Shown here one piece after another: positions 1,944-21,951 of a stretch of DNA of 64,000 bases. Where the stretch lies: positions 1 to 64,000 of the forward strand of contig NZ_AULP01000004.1 of NCBI RefSeq assembly GCF_000422345.1, in the 5' to 3' direction. Position numbers and translations under genes: made by a program. The notes below the pieces were generated by a model. It was given only the letters and a program-made list of their open reading frames with translations, was not told where the DNA came from and did not search any database. Origin of the DNA: Neomelitea salexigens DSM 19753 (GTDB lineage Bacteria; Pseudomonadota; Gammaproteobacteria; Pseudomonadales; Spongiibacteraceae). The number at the start of each line of letters is the position of its first letter. The first letter of the stretch is position 1.

Positions 1944-5958
<4,015 letters not shown>

Positions 5959-6443: not shown

Positions 6444-6474
6444 TTGACTCTATAGTAACTATAGAGTCTAAACT
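6444..6474 (+). promoter_or_regulatory. MerR-type promoter/operator for the cation transporter (CadR target)
   Basis: A -35 box TTGACT (6444-6449) and a -10 box TAAACT (6469-6474) are separated by 19 bases. A perfect palindrome at 6446-6468 overlaps the spacer, with 11-base arms GACTCTATAGT and ACTATAGAGTC around one central base. The long spacer with centred dyad is the hallmark of MerR-family activated promoters. The sequence closely resembles known PbrR/CadR operators. Confidence 0.88.
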
Positions 6475-6506
6475 GCTTTTGAATCAGGTGTACACAGGTA
6501 CGGAAA

Positions 6507-7376
6507 ATGGCTGAAAACAATCACGCGGATACCGTCACTTCGGGAGACTCCGCAGATCACAACAGTTTTGTCAGTGAATTCCATCTCGCCAAAATGGACT
6601 GTTCCTCGGAGGAGCGTCTGGTTCGAATGAAGCTCGACGGCATTCAACCGGAGGTTGCTCTTGAGTTTGACCTTCTCCAACGCTCCCTTCAGGTATTCCA
6701 TCAGGGAAATATTGATGACATCACCCAGCGCCTAGAAAGCCTCAATCTTGGCGCGAGATTGATCGAAACGCTGGAAGTGGAAGCGGCGGATTTATCGACC
6801 GCGATGGCCTCCCAGGCAGAAACAGATCAGAAAGAAGCTTCGATCCTGAAATGGTTGCTCGTAATCAATGGGACGATGTTCTTTATCGAATTGACCGTTG
6901 GCTGGATCGCGCAATCAACCGGGCTGATTGCAGACTCTCTGGATATGTTCGCCGATGCGGCGGTTTACGGCGTGGCCCTGTACGCGGTCGGGCGGGCGGC
7001 GAGCTTGAAGCTTCGCGCAGCGCATTTTGCGGGTTGGCTGCAGATGATCCTCGCCGTCGGCGTACTGAGTGAGGTCGCAAGGCGATTTATGTTTGGCAGC
7101 GAACCAGCGTCCACCCTGATGATGGGCTTCGGCCTGCTGGCACTGGTAGCAAACGTGGCTTGTTTAGTTTTAATATCCAAATCGAAAGACGACGGCGCCC
7201 ATATGAAGGCCAGCTATATCTTTTCCGCCAACGACGTAATCGCCAATGCTGGCGTTATTCTCGCGGGTGCTCTGGTAGCTTGGACTGGATTACGCTTACC
7301 CGACCTGGTTATCGGCTTGGTGATAGGCCTGGTTGTGCTTAACGGTTCGCGCCGCATACTTCAGCTTCGCTCTTGA
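6507..7376 (+). CDS. CDF-like cation transporter with N-terminal HMA-like domain
   Basis: The 289-residue protein has an N-terminal soluble part of about 100 residues resembling a heavy-metal-associated fold (FHLAKMDCSSEERLVRM, with Cys32), followed by about six membrane segments of the cation diffusion facilitator type. The metal-site signature in the second segment is D146xxxD150 (DSLDMFAD), and a later segment carries SANDVIANAG. The canonical C-terminal cytosolic domain of CDF proteins is absent. It is controlled by the divergent cadR through the operator at 6444-6474, so it probably exports Cd, Zn or Pb from the cytoplasm. Domain assignment rests on motif reading. Substrate is inferred from the regulator. 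Confidence 0.75.
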   Translation: MAENNHADTVTSGDSADHNSFVSEFHLAKMDCSSEERLVRMKLDGIQPEVALEFDLLQRSLQVFHQGNIDDITQRLESLNLGARLIETLEVEAADLSTAMASQAETDQKEASILKWLLVINGTMFFIELTVGWIAQSTGLIADSLDMFADAAVYGVALYAVGRAASLKLRAAHFAGWLQMILAVGVLSEVARRFMFGSEPASTLMMGFGLLALVANVACLVLISKSKDDGAHMKASYIFSANDVIANAGVILAGALVAWTGLRLPDLVIGLVIGLVVLNGSRRILQLRS

Positions 7377-7438
7377 ATCCTGCGATCCGGTATACGCCTA
7401 GTGGCAATCAGGCAGACTAACGGTGCAAAACTAACGCT

Positions 7439-8335
7439 TCAGTCTGCGCCGCAGCTAGCTTGCGCATCACAAGCGCGCCGGATACAACTATCTTCAGGTT
7501 GTAATGTGGAATGCTCGATACCAAACCGCTCCCGCAGTATCACTTGTAGCTGTGGCAATACCTCTTCCCAGCGATCCAGCCTGTCCAGATCCACATGCGC
7601 GGCAAGCGCATAGCTGCTAGAGGACAGGCTCCAAATATGCAAATCATGAAGGGTGTTCACGCCTTCAATCCCAGCGAGAGCCTTACATACCTCACGGGCA
7701 TCAATATCGCGAGGTACCCCTTCCATTAACACATGCAGCACTTCCCGAAACAGACGTCCGGCAGAGATCAGGATAAGCAAGCTGACAAACAGAGACAACA
7801 GCGGATCGGCAATCAGTGGCCCGCCGAAATAGATGATGGCACCTGCGCCAATCGCAGCCACGGAACCGAGCAGATCGCCCACCACGTGCAGCAACGCACC
7901 GCGTACATTCATGGTCTGCTCGCCACGCAACAATATCCAGGCAACAATCAGATTGACCAGCAAACCCAGTCCACCGATAAGCAATACCATGCCACCGGCA
8001 ACTGGCGGTGGATCAAGCAGACGGCGAATTGCCTCGTACCCGATAACAGCGATAACCGCCACCATAAAAAGCACGTTAAACAAAGCGCCAAGAACTTCGG
8101 CACGCTGCAAACCAAAGGAATGTTTGCTCGAAGCTGGTTTACGCGCCAACCAGGCAGCGAAAGCGCCAACGCCCAGCGACAGAGAATCGGTAAGCATATG
8201 CCCCGCGTCTGACAGCAAAGCCAGCGAGTCGGCCAGTATGCCGCCAACCACTTCCACGCCAGCAAAGGCTGTCGTGAAAACAAGACAAAGCAGGAGCGTT
8301 TTGCCACTCCCGTGGCTGTGGTTATGATCAGCCAT
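7439..8335 (-). CDS. czcD: CzcD-type cation diffusion facilitator (Zn/Cd/Co exporter)
   Basis: The 298-residue protein starts with a His-rich head (MADHNHSHGSGK), followed by six membrane segments and a cytosolic domain from about residue 200. The transport-site residues are clear: D43 and H46xxxD50 in segment 2 (SDAGHMLTD) and H150xxxD154 in segment 5 (HVVGD). This is the Zn-type arrangement. It exports divalent metal to the periplasm, where CzcCBA could remove it from the cell. It converges with the cation transporter gene to its left. A MerR-type promoter lies directly upstream at 8367-8398. Confidence 0.93.
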   Translation of the reverse strand: MADHNHSHGSGKTLLLCLVFTTAFAGVEVVGGILADSLALLSDAGHMLTDSLSLGVGAFAAWLARKPASSKHSFGLQRAEVLGALFNVLFMVAVIAVIGYEAIRRLLDPPPVAGGMVLLIGGLGLLVNLIVAWILLRGEQTMNVRGALLHVVGDLLGSVAAIGAGAIIYFGGPLIADPLLSLFVSLLILISAGRLFREVLHVLMEGVPRDIDAREVCKALAGIEGVNTLHDLHIWSLSSSSYALAAHVDLDRLDRWEEVLPQLQVILRERFGIEHSTLQPEDSCIRRACDAQASCGAD

Positions 8336-8366
8336 AGGTAAGCCTCTAATTCAGAAAGTAGCTTTA

Positions 8367-8398
8367 AACATAAAGCCTGTACCTGACAACAGGGTCAA
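8367..8398 (-). promoter_or_regulatory. MerR-type promoter/operator upstream of czcD
   Basis: Read on the minus strand, the -35 box TTGACC (8398-8393) and -10 box TATGTT (8372-8367) have a 20-base spacer. The spacer region carries inverted arms ACCCTGT and ACAGGCT with one mismatch. The layout matches the other metal-responsive promoters in this block, but the arms differ from the CadR palindrome. Confidence 0.62.
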
Positions 8399-8407
8399 TA
8401 CCTCAAT

Positions 8408-8746
8408 TCATCGGCTGTGACCAAAACCACCCAATATAATAATCGCTGCGCCAATCAGGATAATAATGGCGCCCAGAATATCGGTAATATTCAGCTCTAC
8501 TTCATCAATAAATCGTAACCACACCAGCGCTGTAGCTACATAAACACCACCATAGGCCGCGTAAACGCGTCCACTCGCCGTTGGATGAAGTGTCAGCAAC
8601 CAAACAAACAGCGAAAGACTTAATGCTGCGGGAAGTAACAACCACGGAGAACCATTCTTCTTTAACCACAACCAAGGCAAGTAGCAGCCGACAATCTCAG
8701 CCAGCGCAGTGACCGTAAAAAGCGCAGTCGTTTTCAGAATCAGCAT
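8408..8746 (-). CDS. ynfA: YnfA-family small multidrug-type membrane protein
   Basis: This 112-residue, almost wholly hydrophobic protein has four membrane segments. The opening [14 protein letters not shown] and the later [20 protein letters not shown] are characteristic of the YnfA (UPF0060) family, which is related to the small multidrug resistance exporters. Substrate is not established, and family members occur near metal and biocide resistance genes. It lies between the sterol desaturase-type gene and czcD on the same strand. The 72-base gap to czcD contains the MerR-type promoter, so czcD has its own promoter. Confidence 0.88.
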
Positions 8747-8792
8747 TTACATTCCCCATTACCGCAGCACTGCTTATTACAAATTGAGTGTG

Positions 8793-8814
8793 AATCTGGC
8801 CAGACAGCCAGATT
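8793..8814. repeat. Inverted repeat between the desaturase-type gene and ynfA
   Basis: Perfect 8-base arms AATCTGGC (8793-8800) and GCCAGATT (8807-8814) surround a 6-base loop. There is no T-run, so it is either a factor-assisted terminator for the gene ending at 8849 or an operator for ynfA. Confidence 0.4.
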
Positions 8815-8848
8815 TACATATTAGCTACACATTGTTCGGCGCAAGCAA

Positions 8849-9697
8849 TCATTTAAAGGGCCAAAATATTTGCTGCCAGTAGCGGATTGGCATTTCTTCA
8901 CGCATCCCTACTTCACCAACCCGTACACCGTTTTTCGCATACTTGAAGGTTCTGAACAGTTGGTCCCATATCATCCAGAATTCCCCAAAATTAACCTGGG
9001 CGTCTTCATACTCACGCTTGTGGTGCCAACGGTGAATCTCGGCAACGCCAATCACCTGTCTGAATACACCGACACTATAATCCAGGTTCGAATGCTGAAG
9101 CGCGAGATGCACAGCGATGATAGCAAACCAGCAGCCGATCACCGATGCGGGTGCACCAAGGGCTACAACGACGAGCAAGCCGGGACTGGCCAGCAACACG
9201 GCGCTTATAGGGTGCCGCCGTTCACCATTGAGCCAGTAGAGCCGCTCGGAACTGTGGTGCAGGGCGTGCAAGCGCCACAAAAAGTGATTCTTATGGCTGA
9301 GCCAGTGCATAAACCATAAACCAAAATCGATAATGGCACCGGCGATAAGTATCTGCGCCCACAGAGGCGCTTCGTGCGGCCAATTCTTATGAAGAAGGTC
9401 CCACTCCAGCGGGAGCAAACTACGCGACAAGACAACAAGTTCTACAACCCCGAAAATCAGGGTTAGGCTGAATGCCGCGTGAAAAACATCAACGACCGTG
9501 TCACCGTGGTCTTTATTCCAGTCGTGCTCATAGGCCTGGATGCGTTCGAGTACCACAATCAGACCAATACCGGCCGCAGCTACGAGCGCCGACAGAGGCC
9601 AATAAGGCAGTCCTTCCACCACGATAAAATACTGCAACCAGGCACAACCCAGGAATATCAGCGGGTAACTCCCCCAACGAATCAATGTACGCATCAC
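8849..9697 (-). CDS. Sterol desaturase / fatty acid hydroxylase family membrane protein
   Basis: The 282-residue protein has several membrane segments and the three histidine clusters of the di-iron hydroxylase superfamily: HWLSHKNH followed by HALHHS, then HLALQHSN, then HRWHHKRE. Members hydroxylate or desaturate lipids such as sterols, fatty acids or carotenoids at the membrane. The substrate here cannot be told from sequence. It sits inside the metal block upstream of ynfA without an obvious metal role. Lipid remodelling under metal stress is possible but unsupported. Confidence 0.85.
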   Translation of the reverse strand: MMRTLIRWGSYPLIFLGCAWLQYFIVVEGLPYWPLSALVAAAGIGLIVVLERIQAYEHDWNKDHGDTVVDVFHAAFSLTLIFGVVELVVLSRSLLPLEWDLLHKNWPHEAPLWAQILIAGAIIDFGLWFMHWLSHKNHFLWRLHALHHSSERLYWLNGERRHPISAVLLASPGLLVVVALGAPASVIGCWFAIIAVHLALQHSNLDYSVGVFRQVIGVAEIHRWHHKREYEDAQVNFGEFWMIWDQLFRTFKYAKNGVRVGEVGMREEMPIRYWQQIFWPFK

Positions 9698-9852
9698 CTT
9701 TTTACTCCAATAGTCAGCTTCGTCGCTGAGTTAGTGTGATGCCATACTACGAAAGCCAGGTAACGGCGTATTGAACGAAAGTGCTATCTTGCTCTATCCA
9801 TAAAATCCTGCAAATCAGCCCCGGTGGCAACCGATAACAAAGCGTGAATTGT

Positions 9853-10590
9853 TCAACCAAGCAATTCCAGTATGTCGGTGGGCCTTACCCCAAAGGCCTC
9901 CGAGACGGCACGGTTGAAATGAGATTGGTCGGAGAATCCGGCATCAACGCCCGCTCGATTCAGGCTGCCTGTTAAAACGGCAGTTTCCAGAGCCTTTATA
10001 AGCCGGAGCCATTTTCGATAGCTGCGAAGAGGCATCCCTGTTTCCTGGCTAAACCAGTGCGAAAAGCGACTGGGAGATAGATGGCAAATGCGGGCCAGCT
10101 GCTCACGGTCGATTATCACATTATCGTCTATGGCCTTTTTCAGTTCCGCCAATACCAGAGTCAGTTTGGGGTCAGCTTGCTGGCGCGAGCTTTCAGTTTC
10201 AAAAGCTTTAAAAAATAGAGCAAGGCATTCAGACAAAGCACAATCAGCTGGAAAAAGAGAGACAAGCTTTTGAATGCTGGCGTCAGACAAAGCATGTATC
10301 GCAGCCGAATGTGACAAAGAAATGTTCAGCCCATCCAAAAAGGAGCTGGTGGGGTCAACATAAACAGAGAACACATTGGCTTCAAGCTGCCGATGCTTGA
10401 CACCAGCCGGTATCAGAAACCCGGCCCCACAGTATTCGATATCGTTTACGTTGAATTCTATAGTTCCATCGAGTGCCAAGCTTATCTGGTGGGCCCAGTG
10501 GCGATGGGCCCGGTTGTCGCCAGAGTGGCCTCGGAAAAGACCAATTCCGGGAGCCAGGGCGGCTTCCCCGTGCCAGTGCGCCGCGCCCAT
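9853..10590 (-). CDS. AraC-family transcriptional regulator
   Basis: The 245-residue protein has an N-terminal cupin-like sensor region with a His-rich stretch (NRAHRHWAHQ) and a C-terminal double helix-turn-helix of AraC type (ARICHLSPSRFSHWF, then GVDAGFSDQSHFNRAV). It starts 3 bases after the cytochrome gene, so it is the last gene of the copper operon copA-copB-small protein-cytochrome-araC. That position suggests it senses something linked to this operon, but no target site could be identified. The ligand is unknown. The histidines in the sensor half make metal binding conceivable, which is an inference. Confidence 0.85.
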   Translation of the reverse strand: MGAAHWHGEAALAPGIGLFRGHSGDNRAHRHWAHQISLALDGTIEFNVNDIEYCGAGFLIPAGVKHRQLEANVFSVYVDPTSSFLDGLNISLSHSAAIHALSDASIQKLVSLFPADCALSECLALFFKAFETESSRQQADPKLTLVLAELKKAIDDNVIIDREQLARICHLSPSRFSHWFSQETGMPLRSYRKWLRLIKALETAVLTGSLNRAGVDAGFSDQSHFNRAVSEAFGVRPTDILELLG

Positions 10591-10593
10591 GAC

Positions 10594-11160
10594 TTAGTGA
10601 TGCCCTCCCTGATCAGATTCTCCTCGCGCGGTAAGAATTTGATATTGCATTTCATTGAGCTCGGGTAGCTTCTGAATAAAGGCAACCATCGCCCAGATAC
10701 GCTCATCGGTGTGTGTTTCACCCCAAGCGGGCATACCCGATGCCTTGATGCCATGTTTGATTATCCAAAACTGACGACGTAAGGCAGCATCCCAGTCGTG
10801 CTCACCAAACGGATGGGCATGATCGTGTTTGTCTGCAGAAGCCGTCAGATCCGGCGGCGCCGGGTACAAACCCAAACTCAAGTCGGTTGACGAAACACCC
10901 GGTTGCAGGTGGCACCCTGCACACATGTCGTTGTAGTCGGCACCGCCACTTAGCAACAAGTCAGAGTCTCCAAGGTCAGGGACGCTAATATTCTCCGATG
11001 CACGTTTTATAGATCTTTCGCGAAGCGTCTCCAAAGCCCAGTAGCTAACACCCCAATGACGGTCATCTGCGCCCATGGGGTAGAGCCCTGAGTACAGGAA
11101 CCCGACTCCAGTCGCAATTAGCAAAAGTATCAAGCCGAGCGTTATTTTAATTGCCTTCAT
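10594..11160 (-). CDS. Membrane-anchored c-type cytochrome of the copper operon
   Basis: The 188-residue protein starts with a membrane anchor or uncleaved signal (KITLGLILLLIATGVGFLY). It has a single haem-binding motif CAGCH and a likely Met axial ligand in GMPAWGE near residue 145. The last residues are rich in histidine (GGHH). It is a small monohaem periplasmic cytochrome. It lies directly downstream of copB and the small Cys protein and next to an AraC gene. It might accept electrons during periplasmic Cu(I) oxidation by CopA, which is an inference from gene order only. General electron-transfer cytochromes of the same fold are the alternative. Confidence 0.85.
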   Translation of the reverse strand: MKAIKITLGLILLLIATGVGFLYSGLYPMGADDRHWGVSYWALETLRERSIKRASENISVPDLGDSDLLLSGGADYNDMCAGCHLQPGVSSTDLSLGLYPAPPDLTASADKHDHAHPFGEHDWDAALRRQFWIIKHGIKASGMPAWGETHTDERIWAMVAFIQKLPELNEMQYQILTARGESDQGGHH

Positions 11161-11244
11161 GAAGAAAACCTCGATTCAGCCGGTTGAAAGATGGCGCCGA
11201 GATCAGCTGCAATGGATTACAGAAATCGCGGCACCATGCCAGGG

Positions 11245-11499: not shown

Positions 11500-11511
11500 A
11501 CATTCTCTCCT

Positions 11512-12231
11512 TTAGTACCAGGCACGAATGCCCAGCACAAATTGTGTATCTTCAATATCTTCACTGTGCGCTGCTGCAAAATCTGCGGTGTTGCCGTACT
11601 TCTTGCTCCAGTTGACACCGAGGTAAGGCGCAAACTCACGACGGATTTCATAGCGCAATCTCAAGCCCGCTTGGATATCAGCCAGACCGGAACCCACACC
11701 GATATTACGATCATTGTGGCCGTATGCGTTAAGCTCTACTTCCGGGCTCATGATCAGGCGCTGGGTGAACATAAATTCGTATTCTGCTTCTAGCCTCAAA
11801 GCAGTACGCCCTGAACCGCCGACAAAAAGAGCTGCGTCTACCTCGAAGAGATAGGGGGCCAGCCCCTGGAGACCGATGACGCCCCACTCCCGGTCGGGCT
11901 CAGGTTTAAAATCCTTGCGAATACCCACCTGAACATCCCAAAAAGCGGAAACGGCACGGCTGTATAAGGCCTGAAGCTCCAGCTCTTCGCTCTCGTTATC
12001 CACACGCTCGACTTCTGCTTTGAGCCAGAACTTGTTCAGATCGTAGCCGGCCCATAGCGAGCCTTCCAACACCAGCGGATCGTCGCCTTCAGTATCACGC
12101 ACCTCGAATTGATCCAGCTTGCCCATAATCAGAAAGGGGTCATCTTTACCGCCGGCGAGGGCTGCAGGACCAGTAAGTGCGAAGGCTCCCGCGATACAGA
12201 GCCAGATACGGTTGTACGTTAAAGTTTTCAT
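11512..12231 (-). CDS. copB: Copper resistance outer membrane protein CopB
   Basis: The 239-residue protein has a signal peptide ending near PAALAGG, followed by the outer-membrane barrel domain of the CopB/PcoB family. Characteristic stretches include LWAGYDLNKFWLKAEVE, ALYSRAVSAFWDVQ and the C-terminal aromatic residue of outer-membrane proteins (RAWY). The Met/His-rich N-terminal region of longer CopB proteins is absent, so this is a minimal version. Its start overlaps the copA stop by four bases (ATGA), showing translational coupling. It would bind or gate copper at the outer membrane. Confidence 0.92.
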   Translation of the reverse strand: MKTLTYNRIWLCIAGAFALTGPAALAGGKDDPFLIMGKLDQFEVRDTEGDDPLVLEGSLWAGYDLNKFWLKAEVERVDNESEELELQALYSRAVSAFWDVQVGIRKDFKPEPDREWGVIGLQGLAPYLFEVDAALFVGGSGRTALRLEAEYEFMFTQRLIMSPEVELNAYGHNDRNIGVGSGLADIQAGLRLRYEIRREFAPYLGVNWSKKYGNTADFAAAHSEDIEDTQFVLGIRAWY

Positions 12232-14078
12232 GCGCGACCTCCTTTTTCCACCCGCACTTCCCGCATCATGCCCGGCATGTGATAAAGCAAATGACAGTGG
12301 TAGGCCCAGCGACCCAAGGCATCGGCTGTTACCAGGTAACTGATGGAGGAACCCGGCTGAACAATCACCGTGTGTTTTCGCGGAATATAAGCGGCGTCAC
12401 CGGTTTCCAGTTCACTCCACATACCGTGCAGGTGAATGGGGTGAGTCATCATGGTGTCGTTAACGAGGGTAATGCGTACCCGCTCGCCGTAGGTCAGCCG
12501 TAGCGGCTCGGCATCGGCAAACTTGATGCCGTCAACGGACCACATATAGCGACTCATATTGCCGGTCAGATGGAGCTGAATTTCGCGCTCGGGGTCTCGC
12601 TTGTCGAGCGTTGGATAGAGGTTTTTAATATCCCCGTAGGTGAGCACCTTTCTGCCGTAACGCTCTTGGTGATCACGTAAACCCACCCCGGGGTCGTTCA
12701 AGCCATTCTGCGGTGCGGGCGCAAGCATATCGACATGTGGCCCGTATTCAGTCGAATCATGCTTTATGGGGCTATTGCTGCCCTCGCCTGCACTGGCAAT
12801 GGATTGCATACGGTGCTGACTGTGATCCATCCCCTGCATGCCATGCATCTTGTGCATGCTGTGATCCATGCGCTTGTCACCCATTGCGGACATATCATGC
12901 TTCATGCCCTTCATGCTGCCCATATCATGGCCGCCATGATCCATGCCACCCATTGCCGCCATCCCCATATCGGCGTGGCTGAGCACCGGGGTGTAATCCA
13001 TGTCGGGCACTTCGGCTGTCCACGCGGGATCTGGTGTGAGCGTACCGCGAGCATAGCCAGAACGATCAATGGTCTGGGCGAAGATTGTATAGGCGCTGTC
13101 GTCACTCGGTTCGACCACAACGTCGTAGGTTTCCGCAACACCGATACGAAATTCGTCGACGCTGACCGGCTCGATATTCTGGCCGTCTGTCGCAACCACG
13201 GTCATTTTCAAACCGGGAATACGAATATCGAAAATGGTCATTGCAGCGCCATTGATAAAACGCAGGCGCACTTTTTCACCGCGTTTGAATAAGCCGGTCC
13301 AGCCGCTATCGGGTGTGATGCCATTCATCAGGAAGGTATAGGTGTAACCAGTGACATCAGCGATGTCGGTCTGGCTCATGCGCATGGTGTTCCACATTTT
13401 GCGCTCGTTCCAGGTCTGCGCCAGCCCCTTCTCTTTAATATCTCGCCACAGGTCGCCCGCTGTGCGCTCCTGAAAATTGTAGTAGTGACTCATCTTTTTC
13501 AGTTTGGCGTAGATATCGTGGGGGTTGTCGTCTGACCAGTCCGACAGGAGCACCACGTAATCCCGATCACACACCACGGGATCAGGCTCTTTCGGATCAA
13601 TCACGATGGCGCCGTACAGACCGGTTTGTTCTTGAAACCCTGAATGGGAGTGATACCAGTAGGTGCCGCTTTGATTGACATCAAATTCGTAGTGATAGGT
13701 TTCCCCCGGCTTTATACCGGCAAAACTCAAGCCCGGCACCCCGTCCATATCCGTCGGCAAAATGATGCCGTGCCAGTGAATGGAGCTGTCGTGGGCCAGG
13801 TGGTTCGTTACATTCAATCGGACCCGCTCCCCCTCCTTCCAGCGCAAAATGGGGGCAGGCAGGCTTCCGTTTACCGTGGTAGCGGTACGCTCGGCACCGG
13901 TAAAGTTGACTGACTGGTAGCCAATAGAAAGATCGAAGTTATTGCCTGTAAGCACTCGAGGTCGGGGATTGGCCTCTGCGGCTCTAAGGGGCAAACCGAA
14001 CCCCGCAAGCGCGGCGCCAGCCGCCGCGCCAGTGACAAAACGACGACGGGAAAGGGACGAAAAATTTTCCAGATTCAC
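12228..14078 (-). CDS. copA: Copper resistance multicopper oxidase CopA
   Basis: The 616-residue protein starts at a GTG with a good AGAGGA site and has a twin-arginine signal (SRRRFVTGAAAG). The multicopper oxidase ligands are visible: HWH near residue 101 and HSH near 143 in the N-terminal cupredoxin domain, and HPIHLHG plus HCHLLYHMPGMM near the C-terminus. A Met/His-rich segment at about 370-425 (MGGMDHGGHDMGSMKGM and similar) fits copper binding and Cu(I) oxidation in the periplasm. It is coupled to copB and lies downstream of a small Cys-rich exported protein. This is the PcoA/CopA type rather than CueO. Confidence 0.95.
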   Translation of the reverse strand: MNLENFSSLSRRRFVTGAAAGAALAGFGLPLRAAEANPRPRVLTGNNFDLSIGYQSVNFTGAERTATTVNGSLPAPILRWKEGERVRLNVTNHLAHDSSIHWHGIILPTDMDGVPGLSFAGIKPGETYHYEFDVNQSGTYWYHSHSGFQEQTGLYGAIVIDPKEPDPVVCDRDYVVLLSDWSDDNPHDIYAKLKKMSHYYNFQERTAGDLWRDIKEKGLAQTWNERKMWNTMRMSQTDIADVTGYTYTFLMNGITPDSGWTGLFKRGEKVRLRFINGAAMTIFDIRIPGLKMTVVATDGQNIEPVSVDEFRIGVAETYDVVVEPSDDSAYTIFAQTIDRSGYARGTLTPDPAWTAEVPDMDYTPVLSHADMGMAAMGGMDHGGHDMGSMKGMKHDMSAMGDKRMDHSMHKMHGMQGMDHSQHRMQSIASAGEGSNSPIKHDSTEYGPHVDMLAPAPQNGLNDPGVGLRDHQERYGRKVLTYGDIKNLYPTLDKRDPEREIQLHLTGNMSRYMWSVDGIKFADAEPLRLTYGERVRITLVNDTMMTHPIHLHGMWSELETGDAAYIPRKHTVIVQPGSSISYLVTADALGRWAYHCHLLYHMPGMMREVRVEKGGRA

Positions 14079-14178
14079 GATAATTTCCTCTTTTTACCTG
14101 TCATAACAACGAAGGCGGTCATGACACAACACACTGCGCGTGATTAATAACGCTTAGCACAGACGGACTAACCCTGTG

Positions 14179-14562
14179 TCAGGCAAAAATCGGTGGGCGG
14201 AAGTGACTCTGATTAGTGGTGCGAGTTGATTGAGAGGCAGCCTGAAAACGGCTGTGGTTTGAGGAGTAGACGTCAATGCTCAGAGGAATGAGGGCGAGCG
14301 TGGATTGGCAATGCCCGACGCAGCATTCACACTCCAGGTTGCAACAGTCTTCTGCTTCTGACTCGGCAACGGACTCCCTTACATCGGCGTGGTGAGCCTG
14401 CTCGGTGCTGTCGCAATGCCCGGCCATCGCGTCGTCTGCCACTGGCGCGACAGAAGGAAGGCCATTGGAATGGCCATTGAACATCGCGCCAGCCCACACC
14501 GAACCCGCCTGCTGTCCCAGGAAGATCAGTATGACCATAATGGCTACACGTTGCATGTTCAT
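14179..14562 (-). CDS. Small exported Cys-rich protein preceding copA
   Basis: The 127-residue protein starts MNMQRVAIMVILIFLG, a clear signal peptide ending around VWAGA. The mature part has a dense cysteine cluster, DCCNLECECCVGHC, plus several His residues. It lies 100 bases upstream of copA on the same strand, downstream of a MerR-type promoter. In size, signal and cluster position it parallels the Cys-rich proteins that head the czc and cus operons in this window, although the clusters differ. A role as periplasmic copper or silver buffer or as a sensor is inferred. I cannot name the family with confidence. Confidence 0.65.
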   Translation of the reverse strand: MNMQRVAIMVILIFLGQQAGSVWAGAMFNGHSNGLPSVAPVADDAMAGHCDSTEQAHHADVRESVAESEAEDCCNLECECCVGHCQSTLALIPLSIDVYSSNHSRFQAASQSTRTTNQSHFRPPIFA

Positions 14563-14716
14563 GAACGGAATTCTATCACCATCCTTCTGATCATCTAAAC
14601 CCTCTATAAGGTTAATGGCAGGCCTTGCCGCGCCAGTAGTTATAGGGCCAAGGTGCCAGGAAACCGGCTATCAAGCTGGAAATGATAGTCTACCAGGCTC
14701 ACAAGGATTAGCCCTA

Positions 14717-14747
14717 TCTGAAACCCTGTACCCTACTTCAGAGTCAA
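14717..14747 (-). promoter_or_regulatory. MerR-type promoter/operator upstream of the copper operon
   Basis: On the minus strand a -35 TTGACT (14747-14742) is followed by a 19-20 base spacer with imperfect dyad arms ACTCTG and CAGGGT. The -10 is poor (TTCAGA or TCAGAT). The nearest gene downstream is the Cys-rich protein at 14562, then copA. It resembles the merC promoter at 15425-15455 in both arms. Confidence 0.55.
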
Positions 14748-14789
14748 CTAGAAACGGATTATTTAATGCATTGCCTCCATTCAGGCAGT

Positions 14790-15017
14790 TTATCTATCGG
14801 CTTCAAGATCACAGCATCCGCCGCCCGTTTGCATCGGCGGACAGGGCACGCTGCTGTAGGAACAGTAAACGCAGCAGTCGCCGGATAATGGTTTCAAAAC
14901 TGCGCTGCAGTGCCGGCACTCGTAAAACCATTGGCAGGCATCAACCGGCATGGTTTCCGGCGAGGCTTCGCCGCACTCCGGGCACGTTAATACGGTTTTC
15001 AGCTCTACGTTCGACAT
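14790..15017 (-). CDS. GDCCVxC-domain protein (Cys-rich, MerC partner)
   Basis: The 75-residue protein contains the signature GDCCVYCSYSSVPCPP together with a zinc-ribbon-like CPECGEAS and CRHCSA. The GDCCVxC family often sits beside mercury or thiophilic-metal transporters, and in some organisms one Cys is a selenocysteine. Here every position is an ordinary TGC or TGT codon. Its start lies 13 bases inside the merC coding region, so the two are translationally coupled. A cytosolic metal-binding or chaperone role is likely. The biochemical function of the family is not established. Confidence 0.8.
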   Translation of the reverse strand: MSNVELKTVLTCPECGEASPETMPVDACQWFYECRHCSAVLKPLSGDCCVYCSYSSVPCPPMQTGGGCCDLEADR

Positions 15018-15397
15018 TGAATCGCCCCCGCAGATTTCAACAAATCAAAGACGGACAAGGCAAACATTGCGACCAGCGCCGCGTAGAAAAGTTTTGTACT
15101 CCAGGCATAGGCCCACAGGGGATACAGCACCAACAGAATGGCGATCGGCGGCAACACTGACCGCAAGCCCCGCCAGAATACACGGTGTCGCGTCCAGTTA
15201 AAGGCGTTCAATAACAGCACAACCAGCGCAAAGAGCGGCAGCAGTGTATTGATAAAAAGGCCTTCGTACTGGGAGAGAAAACCCAGCCCCAATGTCGCAC
15301 CCAGCGCGCCCAATGCCGGAAAACAGCCCGCGCAACCCAAGGCACTGACAACCACACCCAGATTGCCCAACTTTTCAAATACCCTGGTAAAGATCAT
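15005..15397 (-). CDS. merC: MerC-family mercury/thiophilic metal membrane transporter
   Basis: The 130-residue protein has four membrane segments and the MerC signature near its N-terminus, SALGCAGCFPALGALGA, with the metal-binding pair Cys22 and Cys25, followed by LGLGFLSQYEGLFI, a stretch typical of MerC. MerC moves Hg(II) across the inner membrane in mer operons. No merA, merP, merT or merR is present here, so a mercury-detoxification operon is not complete and the substrate may differ. It overlaps the GDCCVxC gene downstream. A MerR-type promoter immediately upstream overlaps the end of cusA. Confidence 0.88.
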   Translation of the reverse strand: MIFTRVFEKLGNLGVVVSALGCAGCFPALGALGATLGLGFLSQYEGLFINTLLPLFALVVLLLNAFNWTRHRVFWRGLRSVLPPIAILLVLYPLWAYAWSTKLFYAALVAMFALSVFDLLKSAGAIQCRT

Positions 15398-15424
15398 AGT
15401 GATACCCGCGTGTAACCCTGACCC

Positions 15425-15455
15425 ACGGTAAACCCTGTAGCCGCTTCATAGTCAA
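15425..15455 (-). promoter_or_regulatory. MerR-type promoter/operator of merC, overlapping the cusA stop codon
   Basis: The minus-strand -35 TTGACT (15455-15450) includes the TGA stop of cusA (15454-15452). After a 19-base spacer comes the -10 TACCGT (15430-15425). The spacer carries partly symmetrical arms (ACTATG and CAGGGT). merC starts 28 bases after the -10, so this can serve as its own inducible promoter. Confidence 0.6.
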
Positions 15456-18400
15456 AATTTCTCCCGATAGCACAGCACATACAGTGCGGGAAATACCAGC
15501 ATTACGGTTAGCAACGACGTTAACGTCCCCCCGACCATTGGCGCGGCGATACGCTTCATAACATCGGCACCTGTGCCGTCGCTCACCATCACGGGTATGA
15601 GCGAAAACAGCAAAGTAAGGCCTGTCATCAACATCGGGCGAATCCGCAAAGAAGCAGATTCCACAATGTTTTGATTGCTCTGCTTTACTTCGCCCCTATC
15701 GAGGTAATGCAACATCAACAACCCAAGCTCCGCAGCCAAACCCGCCATGGCAATAATGCCCACCCAAACCGCGACACTCAGTTTGTAATCGAGCATGAAC
15801 AGAAGCCAGAAGGCCCCGGTGAGACCGAAGGGAACCGCGCTCAGCACAAACAGAGCGTCCTTGAAACTCGACCGGTGCAGGTAAAGAAGCAGCAAAACGA
15901 TGGCCAGTGTGGCAGGCACCATCCACTGCAGTCGCGCCTTGGCGCGCTCGAAGTACTTGTACTGCCCTGCCCACTCCAGTGCATATCCCGCCGGCAAAGC
16001 AACCCGGTCTGCCACCACGGCTTTGGCATCTTGTACATAATCTGCCACCCCGATACCCGGTTGCACATCGACGAAAACCAGCCCCACCAGCTGGCCATTT
16101 TCATTGCGAATCATCGGAGCCCCGGTGCGAAAACGCAGTTCAGCCACTTCACTGATCGGCACCTGTTGCCCACCGGGTGTTGCAACAAGCAGCCGCTCAA
16201 GTTCATTCAGGTTCTGGCGATAGTCCCGCGCGTAGCGCATATTCACGGCGTAGCGCTCGCGCCCTTCTACGGTCTCTGTCAGCGGCATTCCGCCGGCCGC
16301 GAGGGTCAGCGTGTTCTGTATGTCCTGCACCGTCAGGCCGTAGCGTGCGGCGGCCATGCGGTCGATATCAAAATCGAGAAAGTAGCCGCCGGTCAGCCGT
16401 TCGGCGAAGGCACTGCGGGTATTGGCGGCGGTTCGGGCATCCTCCTGCAATGCTTTCTCTATCGCCGTGGCTTGTTCTTCAATGGTTGCCAGATCGTCAC
16501 CGAATACCTTGATGCCCAGGGTGCTGCGAATACCGGTGGCGAGCATTTCGGTGCGGGTTTGAATGGGCATCCACCAGATGTTTGGCATGCCGGGGTAGCG
16601 CAGCTTTTCGTCCATCTCAGCGATCAGTCCATCCCAGGTCAGTCCGGGGCGCCACTCGGACTTTGGCTTGAGGGTGACCACCGTCTCCACCATCGACAAA
16701 GGCGCCGGATCGGTAGCGCTATCGGATCGGCCGATCTTGCCAAACACCCGCTCGACTTCCGGAAAACTCGCCAAGGCCTTGTCCATGCTCTGCAAGACCC
16801 GCCCCGCTTCACTGATCGACATACCCGGCAACGCTGTGGGCATATACAAAATGCTGCCTTCATTGAGCGGTGGCATAAATTCGTTGCCCAATTGTCGTGC
16901 CACAGGCACGGTAGCCAGCAGGGCTATAACGGCCACGGCGATGGTGATTCGCCCATGACGCACAGCGATTCCGATCAGCGGCGTAAGCGCTCTTCGCAGG
17001 CGAACTTCAACGGTGTTTTCCCGCAAGGGTTTATCACCCCTCAGCAATACAACTGCCAAGGCTGGTATCAAAGTGACTGATAGAATTGCTGCAAAGGCCA
17101 TGCTGTAGGTTTTGGTAAATGCCAGGGGTTGAAACAATCGGCCTTCGGTGGCCTGCAGGCTGAATACCGGTAAAAAGGATACGGTGATGATAAGCAGCGA
17201 AAAGAAAATGCTCGGGCCTACATCCTGCAAGGCGCCAATCAATAATTCTTTCCGATCTGTTTCGCTATCCGCATCGCGCAGTTTTCGGTGCACGTTATCC
17301 ATCATCACCACCGCGGCGTCCACCATGGCGCCAATCGCAACGGCGATACCCCCGAGCGACATGATATTGGCCGTTAGCCCTTGCGCGGCCATCGGGATAA
17401 AGGCCAGCAGGATGGCAATCGGCAGCGTGATACACGCCACCAGTGCGGAGCGCACATGCAGCAAAAAGGCGATGATCACCAGCGATACCACCACCATTTC
17501 TTCCAGCAGGGTGAACTTCAGGGTATCAATGGCGCGTCGGATTAGCGTTGAGCGGTCGTAGGTGGTCACAATTTCCATGCCCTCGGGCAGCGACGATTCC
17601 AGCTCCGCCAGACGCGCTTTAACCCGATCGATAACCGCCAAAGCGTTTTCACCGTAGCGCATTACCACAATGCCGCCGACCACCTGCCCCTCGCCATCCA
17701 GTTCAGCCAGGCCACGCTGCATGGCAGGCCCGAGCGTGATGTCGGCTACCTGCTTGAGTAATATCGGCACCTGTTTGTTATCGAGGCCTATAACGACGTT
17801 CTCAAGATCCTCCCGACTTTTTAGATAACCCCGCCCGCGAATAAAGTGCTCGTGCCCGGCAATTTCCAGCACACGCCCGCCCGCATCCTGATTGGATTGA
17901 CGCACTGCATCAGCCACTTTTTGCAGACTGATATTGGCGGCCGCAAGGCGGTGCGGATCCAGGTGAATCTGGTACTCCTTGAGAAAGCCGCCCACGGTCG
18001 CGACTTCAGCAACACCATCAAGACTGCTGAGCCAATAGCGCAATTTAAATTCCTGAAAACTGCGCAGGTCCGCGAGGCTGTGCTGGCCACTGCGATCTAC
18101 CAGGGCGTACTGATACACCCAACCAACGCCGGAGGCATCGGGCCCAAGCGTGGGTTGAACGCCGTCCGGCAGTTCGCTACCCAGACTGCTCAGGTATTCC
18201 AGTACCCGGGAGCGGGCCCAGTAGATGTCGGTGCCATCTTCAAATATGACATAGACAAAACTGCTGCCAAAAAAGCTCTGGCCACGCACCGACTGTACAC
18301 CGGGGACGGATAACAATGCGCTGGTCAGAGGATAGGTGATCTGGTCTTCCACCAGATCCGGGCTACGCCCTGACCAGTCGGTCTGGATAATGACCTGCAC

Positions 18401-18544
18401 ATCTGACAGATCAGGTATGGCGTCCAGCGGGGTTTGGGACAAACTGCGCCAACCAAAAACCGCCGCAAAGGCGACCAGCAGGATGGTCAGGCCAGCGTGT
18501 TCTGCGCAGAAGCGAATAAGACGGGCTATCGGACTGGTCACCAT
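15452..18544 (-). CDS. cusA: CusA Cu(I)/Ag(I) RND efflux pump
   Basis: This 1030-residue HME-RND protein carries the three methionines of the CusA periplasmic copper/silver site: Met568 (ILYMP), Met618 (LSMVET) and Met667 (TEMLAT). By alignment from memory these equal Met573, Met623 and Met672 of Escherichia coli CusA. The accompanying acidic and Arg residues (NEG before the first Met, D612, E620, R664) are also kept. The proton-relay helix reads AIGAMVDAAVVMMDN. It is therefore specific for monovalent copper or silver, unlike CzcA at 2851. Its start overlaps the end of cusB. It is the last gene of the cusCBA operon, and its stop codon lies in the -35 box of the merC promoter. Confidence 0.95.
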   Translation of the reverse strand: MVTSPIARLIRFCAEHAGLTILLVAFAAVFGWRSLSQTPLDAIPDLSDVQVIIQTDWSGRSPDLVEDQITYPLTSALLSVPGVQSVRGQSFFGSSFVYVIFEDGTDIYWARSRVLEYLSSLGSELPDGVQPTLGPDASGVGWVYQYALVDRSGQHSLADLRSFQEFKLRYWLSSLDGVAEVATVGGFLKEYQIHLDPHRLAAANISLQKVADAVRQSNQDAGGRVLEIAGHEHFIRGRGYLKSREDLENVVIGLDNKQVPILLKQVADITLGPAMQRGLAELDGEGQVVGGIVVMRYGENALAVIDRVKARLAELESSLPEGMEIVTTYDRSTLIRRAIDTLKFTLLEEMVVVSLVIIAFLLHVRSALVACITLPIAILLAFIPMAAQGLTANIMSLGGIAVAIGAMVDAAVVMMDNVHRKLRDADSETDRKELLIGALQDVGPSIFFSLLIITVSFLPVFSLQATEGRLFQPLAFTKTYSMAFAAILSVTLIPALAVVLLRGDKPLRENTVEVRLRRALTPLIGIAVRHGRITIAVAVIALLATVPVARQLGNEFMPPLNEGSILYMPTALPGMSISEAGRVLQSMDKALASFPEVERVFGKIGRSDSATDPAPLSMVETVVTLKPKSEWRPGLTWDGLIAEMDEKLRYPGMPNIWWMPIQTRTEMLATGIRSTLGIKVFGDDLATIEEQATAIEKALQEDARTAANTRSAFAERLTGGYFLDFDIDRMAAARYGLTVQDIQNTLTLAAGGMPLTETVEGRERYAVNMRYARDYRQNLNELERLLVATPGGQQVPISEVAELRFRTGAPMIRNENGQLVGLVFVDVQPGIGVADYVQDAKAVVADRVALPAGYALEWAGQYKYFERAKARLQWMVPATLAIVLLLLYLHRSSFKDALFVLSAVPFGLTGAFWLLFMLDYKLSVAVWVGIIAMAGLAAELGLLMLHYLDRGEVKQSNQNIVESASLRIRPMLMTGLTLLFSLIPVMVSDGTGADVMKRIAAPMVGGTLTSLLTVMLVFPALYVLCYREKF

Positions 18545-20082
18545 GCATCGCTCCCCAGCTTCAGCTTGCTTTCAGCGGCGATAAGAAACACACCCGAAGT
18601 GACAATACGGTCGCCTTCCTTCAAACCTTTACGGATAACAATATGCTGACCATCGTTATAGCCGGTTTCCACTTTTACCGGCTGCAGTTTCCCTTCGCCG
18701 AGATCCTTGAACACTATGCGTCTGTCCCCGGCCACCACCACCGCGTCCAGTGGCACCAGCAATTGCTCACCCAGGCGTTTGTATAACCACACGTCGGCGA
18801 ACTGCCCGGGCATAAAGGTTTCATCGGAGTTTTGCAGGCTTAGCCTCACCCGCGCGCTGCGCGTTGCACCGCTGACAAAGGGGCTGATCAGGTCTACGCT
18901 GGTTTCTTTCTCTACACCGCTATTCGGCGGCTTTACCCGCGCAGACATTCCCTCCTGCAACAGCGGAATATCTCGCTCATAGGCGTAGGCTTCCACCCAG
19001 ACTTGATCAATGGATGCTGTTTGTAGAACGCTTTGACCGCGCTGCACGGCGGCGCCTTCAGTTAATTGACTGCTGACGATCACCAGCGGCTGCGGCGCCA
19101 GTATCGAAATGTGCGATTGGGCGCCCTTGCGCTCTATGGTTTGAATCTGCTCCGCCAGCAATCCCGCCAGCCGCAGGCGTTCGCGGGACGCCTGCAAGGT
19201 CGGACTATTTGCTGTTGGGTTGCGCCTGTAGCTTTGATAGTGCGCTTCCTGCAAGGCAAACAGCTCCGGGCTGTAAAGGGAAAAAAGTGCTTCGCCTTGG
19301 TTGAAGCGCTGCCCCGGCTCCAGGGCGCGTACCTTGCTCACCCAGCCACCGTATTGCAGATTGATCGCCTTTACCCGGCTCTGATCAAATGCGATTTTCC
19401 CCTGCAATCGCAAAGGAAAGTGAAAGGGCTTGTGCACCACCTCACCGATTTTTATGCCAACGCTCTGGCGGCGGTCTTCATCCACCCGAATGGTGACGCT
19501 GCGCTGCTCCTCACGTGTCACCGGCACCAGATCCATACCGCAGATCGGGCAGGTTCCGGGCGTGGTAGATTTCACCGAGGGGTGCATGGAACAGGTGTGA
19601 TAGGCAATTTCTCCGGCCGCCGGAGCGCTGACCAGGGCCAGCCCCTCGCGACCGGTCGCCATATCAAACACCAGGTCGACATGCTGGTTCTGACCGCTTT
19701 CATCCTCCCAGGCGATATCCACCGCCAGCGGCCATTCACCTTTCATCGGCAGATCAAAAGTGCCTTTATAGCGCCCTTCGCCTGCGGCCTGCATATTAGC
19801 CGCGCTGCGCATTGCCGGCATACTGCCCATGGCGGGCATTTCCGCCACGGCCCGCACCGTGGCATCGTTCAACGCCTTGCCCTGCTGATCCTTCACGTGA
19901 ATAAGCAGTGTGTTTTCACCGACTGTTGGCGGATCGTGTTGCAGGCCAACCTGCACTTGCAACTCGCCGGCTTGAATGACCTCGGTCGCGGAAACCGCAC
20001 CCGTTTCGTTGCCACCCTTTAAATCGCAGCCCGCCAACACCAACAAAAGCACCCAAAAGAACGTCAGATAAATCGGTTTCAT
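18538..20082 (-). CDS. cusB: CusB periplasmic adaptor with extra N-terminal metal domains
   Basis: The 514-residue protein is a predicted lipoprotein (lipobox LAGC, Cys19). Three parts follow. First comes a domain of about 120 residues resembling YtkA/FixH-like beta-sandwich modules, with the Met-rich stretch MPAMGSMPAM. Next is a heavy-metal-binding domain at about 155-190 (HTCSMHP, then CPICGMDLVPV). Last is the normal adaptor core. The core links CusA to the outer-membrane channel, and the N-terminal modules may pick up periplasmic Cu(I) or Ag(I). No CusF gene is present, so these modules may replace it (inference). The gene overlaps cusC by four bases and cusA by seven. Confidence 0.92.
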   Translation of the reverse strand: MKPIYLTFFWVLLLVLAGCDLKGGNETGAVSATEVIQAGELQVQVGLQHDPPTVGENTLLIHVKDQQGKALNDATVRAVAEMPAMGSMPAMRSAANMQAAGEGRYKGTFDLPMKGEWPLAVDIAWEDESGQNQHVDLVFDMATGREGLALVSAPAAGEIAYHTCSMHPSVKSTTPGTCPICGMDLVPVTREEQRSVTIRVDEDRRQSVGIKIGEVVHKPFHFPLRLQGKIAFDQSRVKAINLQYGGWVSKVRALEPGQRFNQGEALFSLYSPELFALQEAHYQSYRRNPTANSPTLQASRERLRLAGLLAEQIQTIERKGAQSHISILAPQPLVIVSSQLTEGAAVQRGQSVLQTASIDQVWVEAYAYERDIPLLQEGMSARVKPPNSGVEKETSVDLISPFVSGATRSARVRLSLQNSDETFMPGQFADVWLYKRLGEQLLVPLDAVVVAGDRRIVFKDLGEGKLQPVKVETGYNDGQHIVIRKGLKEGDRIVTSGVFLIAAESKLKLGSDAW

Positions 20083-21389
20083 TGCGTCAGCTCCTTGGTT
20101 GCAACTTCCTCACCCTGCAGGTCTTCAAGAAACACCAGCCCGGCGGCCGCAATAAATTCGGCGCGGCTCAAACGCAGATCGCGTTGCGCGGCGTGATGAC
20201 GTTTGCGGGTTTCCAGATTTTCCTGCTGGGCAATCAGCAGGCTTTGAAAATCAATCGCGCCGGTGCGAAAGTCCGCCAGGCTTGCTTCCAGTTGCTCACT
20301 GGCCATAGGCAGCAGTTCTTTTTCATACAGCGCCCCCCGCTCAAAATGCTCCTGCCAACTCAAGAAGCTGCGCTGCAGTGTGCTTTCAAGCTGCAACAGG
20401 CTATCCCGCTGTTGCCACCTCAGCGCATTCGCCTGTGCGGTGAGGCTGTCTTCGCGAGCCCTGCGTTTGCCAAAGTCCAGCGGCAGGTTCATCCCGACAC
20501 CGACCGTCCAGCGCTTGTCTTCGTTGTCCCACAGGGTGTTGTAGCGGGCCATCAGAGCTACATCCGGCAAGCGATCTTTCCTTTGCAGGGCCAGACGATC
20601 GGAAACTTCTGACTGGTTTGCGCGCAGGGTTTCTATCGCGGGGTGTTGTTCCAGCCGGGTGAGGCTGGCTTTCAGATAGCGCGGCTCAGGATTCAATAGC
20701 GCCCAACCGGTGCCAGTCTCTTCGACAGCGCTAGCCACGCCGGTCGCAGACGCGAGCATAATTTCATTGCGTAGCGTTAGCTTGCGCAGGTCTGCAGCAT
20801 CCTGTTTCAGACTCAGCAGCTGTTGCTGGGCCCGGAGCAGGGCTGAACGAGCGGTGCTGCCGCTGCGATACCCGGCCCGCAGCTGCTCGACAATTTGCTC
20901 GAGCACCGCAACATGCTCATTGCTCAGCGCCAGCGTGGTGTGGGAATGCAGCCACTGGGCATAGGCCTGCCGTACTCGCAGGGCAATGTGGATTCGCTCC
21001 CGATCAAGTTCTGCGTGGCCTTTGTGAATACGAGCCTTTGCCAGCGAGCTATCGAGCGCACGTTCCCCCGGCCAGGGCAGCGCCTGCGACAGTTCTATCT
21101 GATAGCCTTCATCAACCTGGTCAGAGGAATACGTTTCTGGCGCTATACCGAAGCTCAGCCGAGGCTCGGCAAAACGCCCGGCTGCCTTCACACTTTGACT
21201 GTGGGCATTCAGGCGGCTTTGCTGCGCCTGAATAAGAGGCGCACAGGTCAGCGCCAGCGAAACCAGTTCGCGCTCATTGACTGGTGCAGATCGTGTGCAC
21301 TCAGACCCTGAGGGCTCGTTCGCATGCAGATTCGGCGCAATGCTGGCAAGCCCGACTAGCAGCCAGCAATAATATAGTTTCAGTTTCAT
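20079..21389 (-). CDS. cusC: CusC-type outer membrane channel (TolC family)
   Basis: The start at 21389 (MKLKLYYCWLL) is preferred to the longer frame from 21410 because it opens a signal peptide. The protein of about 436 residues has the TolC-family outer membrane factor fold: long helices with repeated heptads and LSFGIAPETYSSDQ in the beta segment. It forms the exit duct for CusB-CusA. Its mature N-terminus has a lone Cys (GSECTRSAP) but no lipobox, so it is probably not lipid-anchored, unlike E. coli CusC. It is first of the three structural genes and follows a Cys-rich exported protein. Confidence 0.88.
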   Translation of the reverse strand: MKLKLYYCWLLVGLASIAPNLHANEPSGSECTRSAPVNERELVSLALTCAPLIQAQQSRLNAHSQSVKAAGRFAEPRLSFGIAPETYSSDQVDEGYQIELSQALPWPGERALDSSLAKARIHKGHAELDRERIHIALRVRQAYAQWLHSHTTLALSNEHVAVLEQIVEQLRAGYRSGSTARSALLRAQQQLLSLKQDAADLRKLTLRNEIMLASATGVASAVEETGTGWALLNPEPRYLKASLTRLEQHPAIETLRANQSEVSDRLALQRKDRLPDVALMARYNTLWDNEDKRWTVGVGMNLPLDFGKRRAREDSLTAQANALRWQQRDSLLQLESTLQRSFLSWQEHFERGALYEKELLPMASEQLEASLADFRTGAIDFQSLLIAQQENLETRKRHHAAQRDLRLSRAEFIAAAGLVFLEDLQGEEVATKELTQ

Positions 21390-21475
21390 TTTTCTCACCC
21401 ATTGCATCAATCAGCGCGTTAGACGCACGCGCAAACATCCTGGCTGCGAAAGTGCAGCCCTGTGGCGAGAAGGGT

Positions 21476-21892
21476 TTAAATGCGAAGGCGGAGTGTAGAG
21501 AGGTAGGTCGCGCGTCCCGTTCGAGCGAGCGCGTGGTCAATGTAATATGAGGCTGTTACAGCGGTTGGAGCAACCGACGGATAAAAATCGAAGGAAGCTG
21601 CGGTAGGAGGTAATTTAAGTAGCGGCTGTATGTCCAGAAACAACACATCGTGCTGATCTTCTGGATCACTGCCCGTGAGCTGCAACTGAACACCAAAGTC
21701 GCAGCAGCCGCCCTGCGTCGATGGCATGGAGTCCATCGCATCACCGTCACAACAGCAATGCTCCATCGCCCCGCTCATGCTCTCATCGAGCTGACAGGCG
21801 AACACACCCTGCGCCTGAACCGCGAGGCTCAGCAGGAGGGCAACCACCAGCGCAATGCGGCGGTCAATTCTTGGCAAGGACAGTTCAATCAT
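21476..21892 (-). CDS. Small exported Cys-rich protein heading the cus operon
   Basis: The 138-residue protein has a signal peptide (RRIALVVALLLSLAV) and cysteine clusters EHCCCDGD and GGCCDFG with intervening Met and Asp residues. It lies upstream of cusCBA on the same strand and directly downstream of the MerR-type promoter at 21921-21951, so it is the first gene of the operon. The Cys-rich mature part and position parallel the leader proteins of the czc and cop operons here. Periplasmic metal binding is likely. The family is not recognised with certainty. Confidence 0.65.
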   Translation of the reverse strand: MIELSLPRIDRRIALVVALLLSLAVQAQGVFACQLDESMSGAMEHCCCDGDAMDSMPSTQGGCCDFGVQLQLTGSDPEDQHDVLFLDIQPLLKLPPTAASFDFYPSVAPTAVTASYYIDHALARTGRATYLSTLRLRI

Positions 21893-21920
21893 TCAAGACA
21901 ATCTATCTTCTAAACTTCTT

Positions 21921-21951
21921 ACAGTAAACCCTTGAGTTGCAAAAGGGTCAA
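21921..21951 (-). promoter_or_regulatory. MerR-type promoter/operator of the cus operon
   Basis: The minus-strand -35 TTGACC (21951-21946) and -10 TACTGT (21926-21921) have a 19-base spacer. Perfect 6-base arms ACCCTT and AAGGGT lie in the -35/spacer region. This is the clearest of the non-CadR MerR-like sites and fits a CueR/CusR-like Cu(I) sensor encoded elsewhere. Confidence 0.68.

Follow-up and report, generated by a model that had tools for sequence, protein, structure and literature searches.

A ZntR-type regulator as the probable switch of copper-resistance genes in CueR-less Spongiibacter

In the stretch of DNA analyzed here, which comprises bases 1-64000 of contig C4 (NZ_AULP01000004.1) of Neomelitea salexigens DSM 19753 and is referred to below as the window, a block of metal-resistance genes contains five MerR-type promoters and a single MerR-family gene, cadR, raising the question of which regulators serve these promoters. 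The genome, 3.44 Mb in 21 contigs with a completeness of 99.99%, was examined as a whole. The preliminary description of the window, made from its sequence, suggested that one regulator may control several targets or that one or more CueR or MerR genes may act from elsewhere. A regulator encoded elsewhere does appear to be involved, but the best candidate is neither CueR nor MerR: it is a ZntR-like protein encoded on contig C5, and we read the evidence below as suggesting that, where Spongiibacter lacks CueR, its copper-resistance genes have come under the control of a regulator of the ZntR type.

Promoter sites and MerR-family regulators

All five promoters named in the preliminary description can be read on inspection (referred to as S1 to S5), each with a TTGAC-type -35 hexamer and a 19- or 20-bp spacer. 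S1 (6444..6474, plus strand, hexamer starting at 6444) is flanked by cadR and a CDF exporter gene, and has a spacer of 19 bp and a 21-bp dyad (6447-6467). The other four are on the minus strand, the same orientation as the genes downstream of them. S2 (8367..8398, hexamer starting at 8398) and S3 (14717..14747, hexamer starting at 14747) both have a 22-bp dyad and a 20-bp spacer, and precede a CDF exporter gene (7439-8335) and a copL-copA-copB operon, respectively. S4 (15425..15455, hexamer starting at 15455) and S5 (21921..21951, hexamer starting at 21951) both have a 21-bp dyad and a 19-bp spacer; the former precedes a merC-GDCCVxC gene pair, and the latter a gene for a 138-aa Cys-rich protein with a cusCBA-like operon after it. 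The dyad of S1 is perfect (10/10 pairs), while those of S2 and S3 pair at 6/11 positions and those of S4 and S5 at 7/10. S3 and S4 both carry TTGACT.TGAAG and TACAGGGTTT, S4 being one base shorter, and the -35 hexamer of S4 shares bases with the TGA stop codon that ends the RND pump gene upstream of it. The -10-like hexamers at these spacers match TATAAT at four of six positions in S1 and S2 and at three of six, a poor match, in S3, S4, and S5. A weak point is that an equally scoring hexamer exists at spacer 17 in S1 and S4 and at spacer 18 in S3, and that S5 has a better one (4/6) at spacer 17.

Of the five MerR-family genes that a profile search with PF13411 found in the genome, cadR is the only one within the window; the two extra matches obtained with PF00376 are sub-threshold and both lie elsewhere. 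As had been noted, cadR is thus the only member of the family found in the window. Two of the five encode regulators of a metal type, namely CadR and the ZntR-like protein. The gene for the latter (C5:26982-27413) is directly upstream of a gene encoding a Cu/Zn exporter of the SO_0444 family (414 bits). The ZntR-like protein scores 176.9 bits against NF007069 (PRK09514), above the cut-off of 143, and 165.9 bits against TIGR02043, slightly under its cut-off of 167.95. When aligned to 1q08, it keeps the cysteines equivalent to C79, C114, C115, and C124 of ZntR, with H119 replaced by Val; these five residues are described as the zinc ligands of ZntR in the available text of PMC7911910.

The preliminary description had proposed searching the genome for CueR and MerR homologs, and this search returned none above cut-off: the best genome protein scores 113.6 bits against TIGR02044 (CueR), vs. 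a cut-off of 147.4, and none of the five MerR-family proteins is above the cut-off for mercury MerR, which is why the latter is rejected as the missing regulator. CueR is rejected in this role both by the protein cut-off and by the operator class discussed below. The remaining three MerR-family proteins (C1:254664, C1:293075, and C9:101636) are far under all metal-profile cut-offs; the neighbors of their genes include what we take to be an integration-host-factor-like gene and an acyl-CoA dehydrogenase gene. Nor was a CopA exporter found in the genome: a single Cu P-type ATPase exceeds the cut-off, and this protein, which is encoded after a FixH gene and has an ATPase-cat_bd domain, looks like an oxidase-assembly pump instead. 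The assembly is fragmented into 21 contigs, and a CueR or MerR gene might thus have been missed because it falls between contigs or on a plasmid absent from the assembly, but the near-complete genome and an operator class that speaks against CueR make such an oversight very improbable.

Operator classes and site assignment

Half-site matrices were built for three operator classes. For ZntR, the best 13 zntR-like loci among many MerR matches were examined, and 12 of them carry their own 22-bp TTGAC operator 60-83 bp ahead of the match start; none was found before the zntR-like gene of G041, and the operator of G013 is identical to that of G000, which leaves 11 distinct operators for training. 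The zntR-like gene of the window genome has the operator TTGACCCTGTAGTAACCTACAAGCTCTATTCT at C5:26917 (locus L004, C5:26917-28430). The CadR matrix was trained on 13 distinct operators from 27 loci, leaving out L188, L189, L195, and L196 (no own site found) as well as L191 and L197 (degenerate site). Within the genus, 15 of 20 CadR-like loci have a 21-bp operator with the arms ACTCTAT..ATAGAGT, as in S1; among the remaining five, one has ACCCTAT arms, two are degenerate, and none was found in two. The CueR matrix rests on seven sites, five from CueR-linked regions and two (L037 and L045) beside sub-cut-off MerR genes. A 21-bp site resembling ACCTTnCC..GGnAAGGT was found in six of 13 CueR-linked regions with a copA ATPase gene and in none of the other seven, and a second dyad search found sites in one of 17 loci (L037).

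Only S1 belongs to the CadR operator class, with its 21-bp ACTCTATAGTnACTATAGAGT adjoining cadR, and it scores 23.3, 35.3, and 3.2 with the ZntR, CadR, and CueR matrices, respectively. The earlier view of this perfect palindrome as suited to CadR is borne out, and the same operator is present at CadR loci of relatives. In the other four sites the ZntR score exceeds both of the others (S2: 19.8, 11.8, and 4.3; S3: 23.1, 18.2, and 2.3; S4: 18.8, 12.4, and 0.4; S5: 18.0, 8.7, and 3.1, in the same order), and with the seven-site CueR model none of S2 to S5 scores above 4.3. Outside the window there are two further sites of the ZntR class, namely the zntR-like gene's own promoter at C5:26917 and a site at C3:57565 (TTGACCCTGTAGCAATAAACAGGGTTTAGCGT; 18.0, 10.2, and 0.8), which is located ahead of a second copL-like gene (27.2 bits vs. 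a cut-off of 40), a DUF411 gene, and a second copA-copB. In G013 this C3-type operon is kept, with a weaker site (14.7). The 22-bp dyad and 20-bp spacer of the ZntR class are present in S2, S3, the C3 site, and the C5 promoter, while S4 and S5, with their shorter dyads and spacers, are ZntR-like in the arms alone and are not counted as members of the class.

The five promoter sites in the window are real and far from chance. A scan of the window with the ZntR matrix, which was trained solely on operators of zntR-like genes, recovered exactly S1 to S5 when TTGAC[CT] and a score of at least 12 were required, and 100 dinucleotide shuffles gave a mean of 0.01 hits. Without the -35 requirement the same dyads lead with scores of at least 18.0, the next being 10.0. 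They also lead after training was reduced to the 10 sites other than the window genome's own or to the six sites from outside the genus (at least 18.5 and 17.0, vs. next-best dyads of 10.9 and 11.9, respectively). Genome-wide, a 22-bp pattern with up to three mismatches occurs at four places (S2, S3, the C5 promoter, and the C3 site) and a 21-bp pattern at S4, while reversed control patterns occur nowhere; since these patterns were derived from the sites themselves, they show the rarity of the sites and do not amount to an independent prediction.

The assignment of S4 and S5 is the least certain, as their arms point to ZntR and their length to CadR. CadR might serve S4 and S5, and perhaps S3, in addition to S1, as a joint cadmium/copper regulator. 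The 21-bp dyads and 19-bp spacers of S4 and S5 are shared with CadR operators, CadR-like loci with ACCCTGAAGT arms exist at the order level (L186 and L187), and the available text of PMC11591864 describes an action of CadR on copper proteins of Rubrivivax gelatinosus, namely CopI and CopA. We nevertheless consider this unlikely, given the different arms that prevail in CadR-like loci of the genus, the lower CadR than ZntR scores of both sites, and a homologous gene pair in G001. The merC-GDCCVxC pair of this genome, 62% and 59% identical to that downstream of S4, has a 22-bp site of the ZntR class (TTGACTCTGAAGCCTGCACAAGGGTTTACGCT), and G001 contains a ZntR-like gene and no CueR over cut-off. 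The cus operons of G019 and G020 also carry 22-bp sites, although their cusC is only 30% identical. For S4 and S5 we thus lean modestly toward the ZntR-like protein over CadR.

In relatives (L070:9956-10604 in G001, L038 in G022, and L049 in G029), a merC-GDCCVxC pair may or may not have a MerR-family gene next to it; those of G022 and G029 adjoin one of their own.

Co-occurrence in relatives and the proposed regulon

Across 18 genomes of the genus, a ZntR-like gene is present in six and CueR in 12: five contain only the ZntR-like gene, 11 only CueR, one (G013) both, and one (G012) neither, a near-exclusion with a Fisher value of 0.004, uncorrected for kinship. We then related sites to regulators at copA loci (TIGR01480), counting a site if it scores at least 12 within 1250 bp upstream, a limit chosen after the distances were known. 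The count covers 35 loci: the 21 genomes G000-G020 contribute every copA locus over cut-off (34), and G023 contributes one. Eight further order-level genomes with an over-cut-off copA were kept out of the count, and no site of at least 12 was found in one copA locus of each. A ZntR-class site is present upstream of copA in seven of 14 loci in genomes with a ZntR-like gene (two in G000 and one each in G007, G010, G013, G018, and G019) vs. none of 21 loci in genomes without it.

Loci without such a site mostly have another regulator at hand. Among the 21 copA loci in genomes without a ZntR-like gene, 10 follow cueR and eight adjoin a response regulator and sensor pair, one of which was examined by Pfam and has a CusS sensor domain. 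Of the seven site-free loci in ZntR-like-positive genomes, three adjoin a response regulator/sensor pair, two (G019) are near a MerR-family gene, one (G023) is beside a metal-sensitive repressor gene, and at the seventh (G007) the only neighbors seen are genes for an IS66 transposase and a MauE-like protein.

In G019 (L066:4494-7736), copL-copA-copB has a divergent neighbor, a MerR-family gene with a P-type-ATPase-like gene behind it. In this MerR-family protein, the position aligned by eye with Cys-79 holds a residue other than cysteine, and the protein may be a different, copper-type regulator.

The distribution of CueR also bears on whether the copper sites might be relics of a lost CueR-like or other copper-responsive MerR regulator, and now be unregulated or weak. 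CueR is above cut-off in two-thirds of the genus (12/18) and not in the window genome, the MerR-family gene adjoining copL-copA-copB in G019 has its own site of this class, and the -10 elements of S3, S4, and S5 are weak. The CueR operators of the genus, however, form a different class, to which S2-S5 bear little resemblance by score, and sites of the ZntR class occur in the ZntR-like-positive, CueR-less genomes G000, G007, G010, and G018. An origin as relics therefore seems improbable.

A number of points weigh against control by the ZntR-like protein and should be considered together with the late choice of the distance limit. The Fisher value for the copA comparison, 0.0005, is uncorrected for kinship of the genomes; seven of the 14 copA loci in genomes with a ZntR-like gene lack a site; and dropping the copA operons with a nearby regulator gene leaves, on our reading, seven of eight vs. 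none of three. G023 and G024, both from outside the family, contain a ZntR-like gene and have no site of the class near copA, and in G020, which is 70% complete, a 22-bp site precedes the cus operon but no ZntR-like ortholog was found. The operators themselves also leave room for doubt: S4, S5, and the C3 site (18.0-18.8) fall just under the leave-one-out range of the zntR-like genes' own operators (19.2-28.5), S4 and S5 are 21 bp long whereas all 12 of those operators are 22 bp, and several copper sites differ from them in the inner right arm (GGTACAGGGT). Covariation between own operator and copper site within genomes was absent, with 65 of 120 permutations equaling or surpassing the actual pairing. 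Finally, Cys-79 is a mark of divalent-metal sensors, and as the ZntR-like protein keeps this residue, a direct response to Cu(I) is not expected. A further caveat on the co-occurrence is that in G010 a sub-cut-off MerR-family protein (L045, G010:C21:2383) adjoins a CueR/HmrR-like 21-bp operator.

Taking both sides together, it is probable, with considerable room for error, that the ZntR-like protein controls S2, S3, the C3 site, and its own promoter, and likely S4 and S5 as well, while CadR from the window controls S1. The ZntR-like protein, made from C5, would bind these sites as a dimer and switch on the CDF exporter and the two copL-copA-copB operons, and probably also merC-GDCCVxC and the cus pump. 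Regulators of the MerR family are known to activate promoters by distorting the DNA of an over-long spacer, as described in the available text of PMC1526738, and the 19-20 bp spacers observed here suggest the same mechanism, in which the dimer would occupy the over-long spacer and, upon metal binding, distort the DNA and make the promoter usable by RNA polymerase. In this CueR-less genome, the ZntR-like protein would thus take the part played by CueR in sister species. What the analysis establishes is the sites, their operator classes, the gene content, and the co-occurrence, while the binding, the inducing metal, and the assignment of S4 and S5 are inferred.

More tentatively, and with rather less confidence than in the site assignments, we suggest that in part of Spongiibacter a ZntR-type regulator, of the divalent-metal kind by its cysteines, may have supplanted CueR in the role of master switch for copper resistance. 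It would combine two copLAB operons, the cus pump, merC-GDCCVxC, and a zinc-type exporter into a single Cu/Zn regulon, and would sense either copper itself or zinc displaced by copper. Shewanella needs SO_0444 when stressed by zinc or copper, and SO_0443, a putative ZntR ortholog, is the predicted regulator of SO_0444 (PMC3219624, available text). Together with CadR acting on copper proteins, this provides a precedent for crossing between metal lines. Among the papers listed in a literature search that left most subscription journals outside its reach, we recognized none on the control of copLAB or cus operons by ZntR. The MerR family is a textbook case of metal selectivity, with ZntR responding to zinc and CueR to copper. 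If the replacement is true, sister species exchanging a ZntR-like protein and CueR as regulator of copper operons would offer a natural test of what determines selectivity, and would caution against inferring metal targets solely from the regulator family.

Genes of the block and comparison with known systems

The divergent gene pair flanking S1 consists of cadR (6010..6408, minus strand; CadR-PbrR, TIGR02047, 153.5 bits vs. a cut-off of 151.45) and the presumed CadR target, a CDF-type cation exporter gene (6507..7376, plus strand; PF01545, 54.1 bits; under the TIGR01297 cut-off). The genes that follow S2 to S5 are all on the minus strand. The presumed S2 target at 7439..8335 encodes a ZitB-like CDF exporter (TIGR01297, 285.5 bits; PRK03557 ZitB, 224.9 bits, below the cut-off of 408). 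The first gene after S3 encodes a copL-like metal-binding protein (14179..14562; NF033807, 38.5 bits, slightly below the cut-off of 40), followed by the multicopper oxidase gene copA (12228..14078; TIGR01480, 889.5 bits) and copB (11512..12231; PF05275, 287.6 bits). S4 is followed by a gene for a merC-like transporter (15005..15397; NF033784, 155.5 bits, cut-off 140) and an open reading frame (ORF) encoding a GDCCVxC protein (14790..15017; NF041374, 98.3 bits over the stretch 14802-15020). The first gene after S5 is an ORF for the 138-aa Cys-rich protein (21476..21892), which matched no Pfam or NCBIfam family at E 0.001. Downstream are genes for a cusC-like outer membrane efflux protein (20079..21410; PF02321), a cusB-like membrane fusion protein (18538..20082; PF16576 and PF19335), and a cusA-like RND pump (15452..18544; PF00873, 742.8 bits).

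Between S2 and the copLAB operon, a gene for an AraC-type regulator adjoins a cytochrome c gene (window 9853-11160). At the contig end, an RND efflux pump gene (2851-5958) is preceded by two ORFs (window 665-5958), and part of its promoter region may be missing.

Compared with the CadR/PbrR regulon, S1 is a standard operator between cadR and an exporter gene, while S2 and S3 differ in their 22-bp length and in their arms. The predicted targets resemble those of the CueR/HmrR regulon, which in the available text of PMC1526738 comprises copper exporters and multicopper oxidases under 19-bp-spacer promoters; here, in contrast, no genome protein is over the CueR cut-off and the operator class does not match. 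A parallel in gene arrangement is SO_0443-SO_0444 of Shewanella oneidensis, where a ZntR-type gene is likewise beside an efflux gene of the same Cu/Zn family, although distant copper-operon sites, as predicted here, are not described in the available text on that system (PMC3219624). Similar to the ZntR/zntA regulon of Escherichia coli and its relatives (PMC1526738, available text), the ZntR-class operators here have a 22-bp dyad with a 20-bp spacer near the consensus ACTCTGGAGTCGACTCCAGAGT. Unlike in that regulon, for which the same 2006 survey, as far as its available text goes, reports no operator before zntR, zntR-like genes here are preceded by an operator of their own in all but one of the loci examined (12/13), the zntR-like gene adjoins the SO_0444-family exporter gene instead of zntA, and the predicted targets include copper operons.

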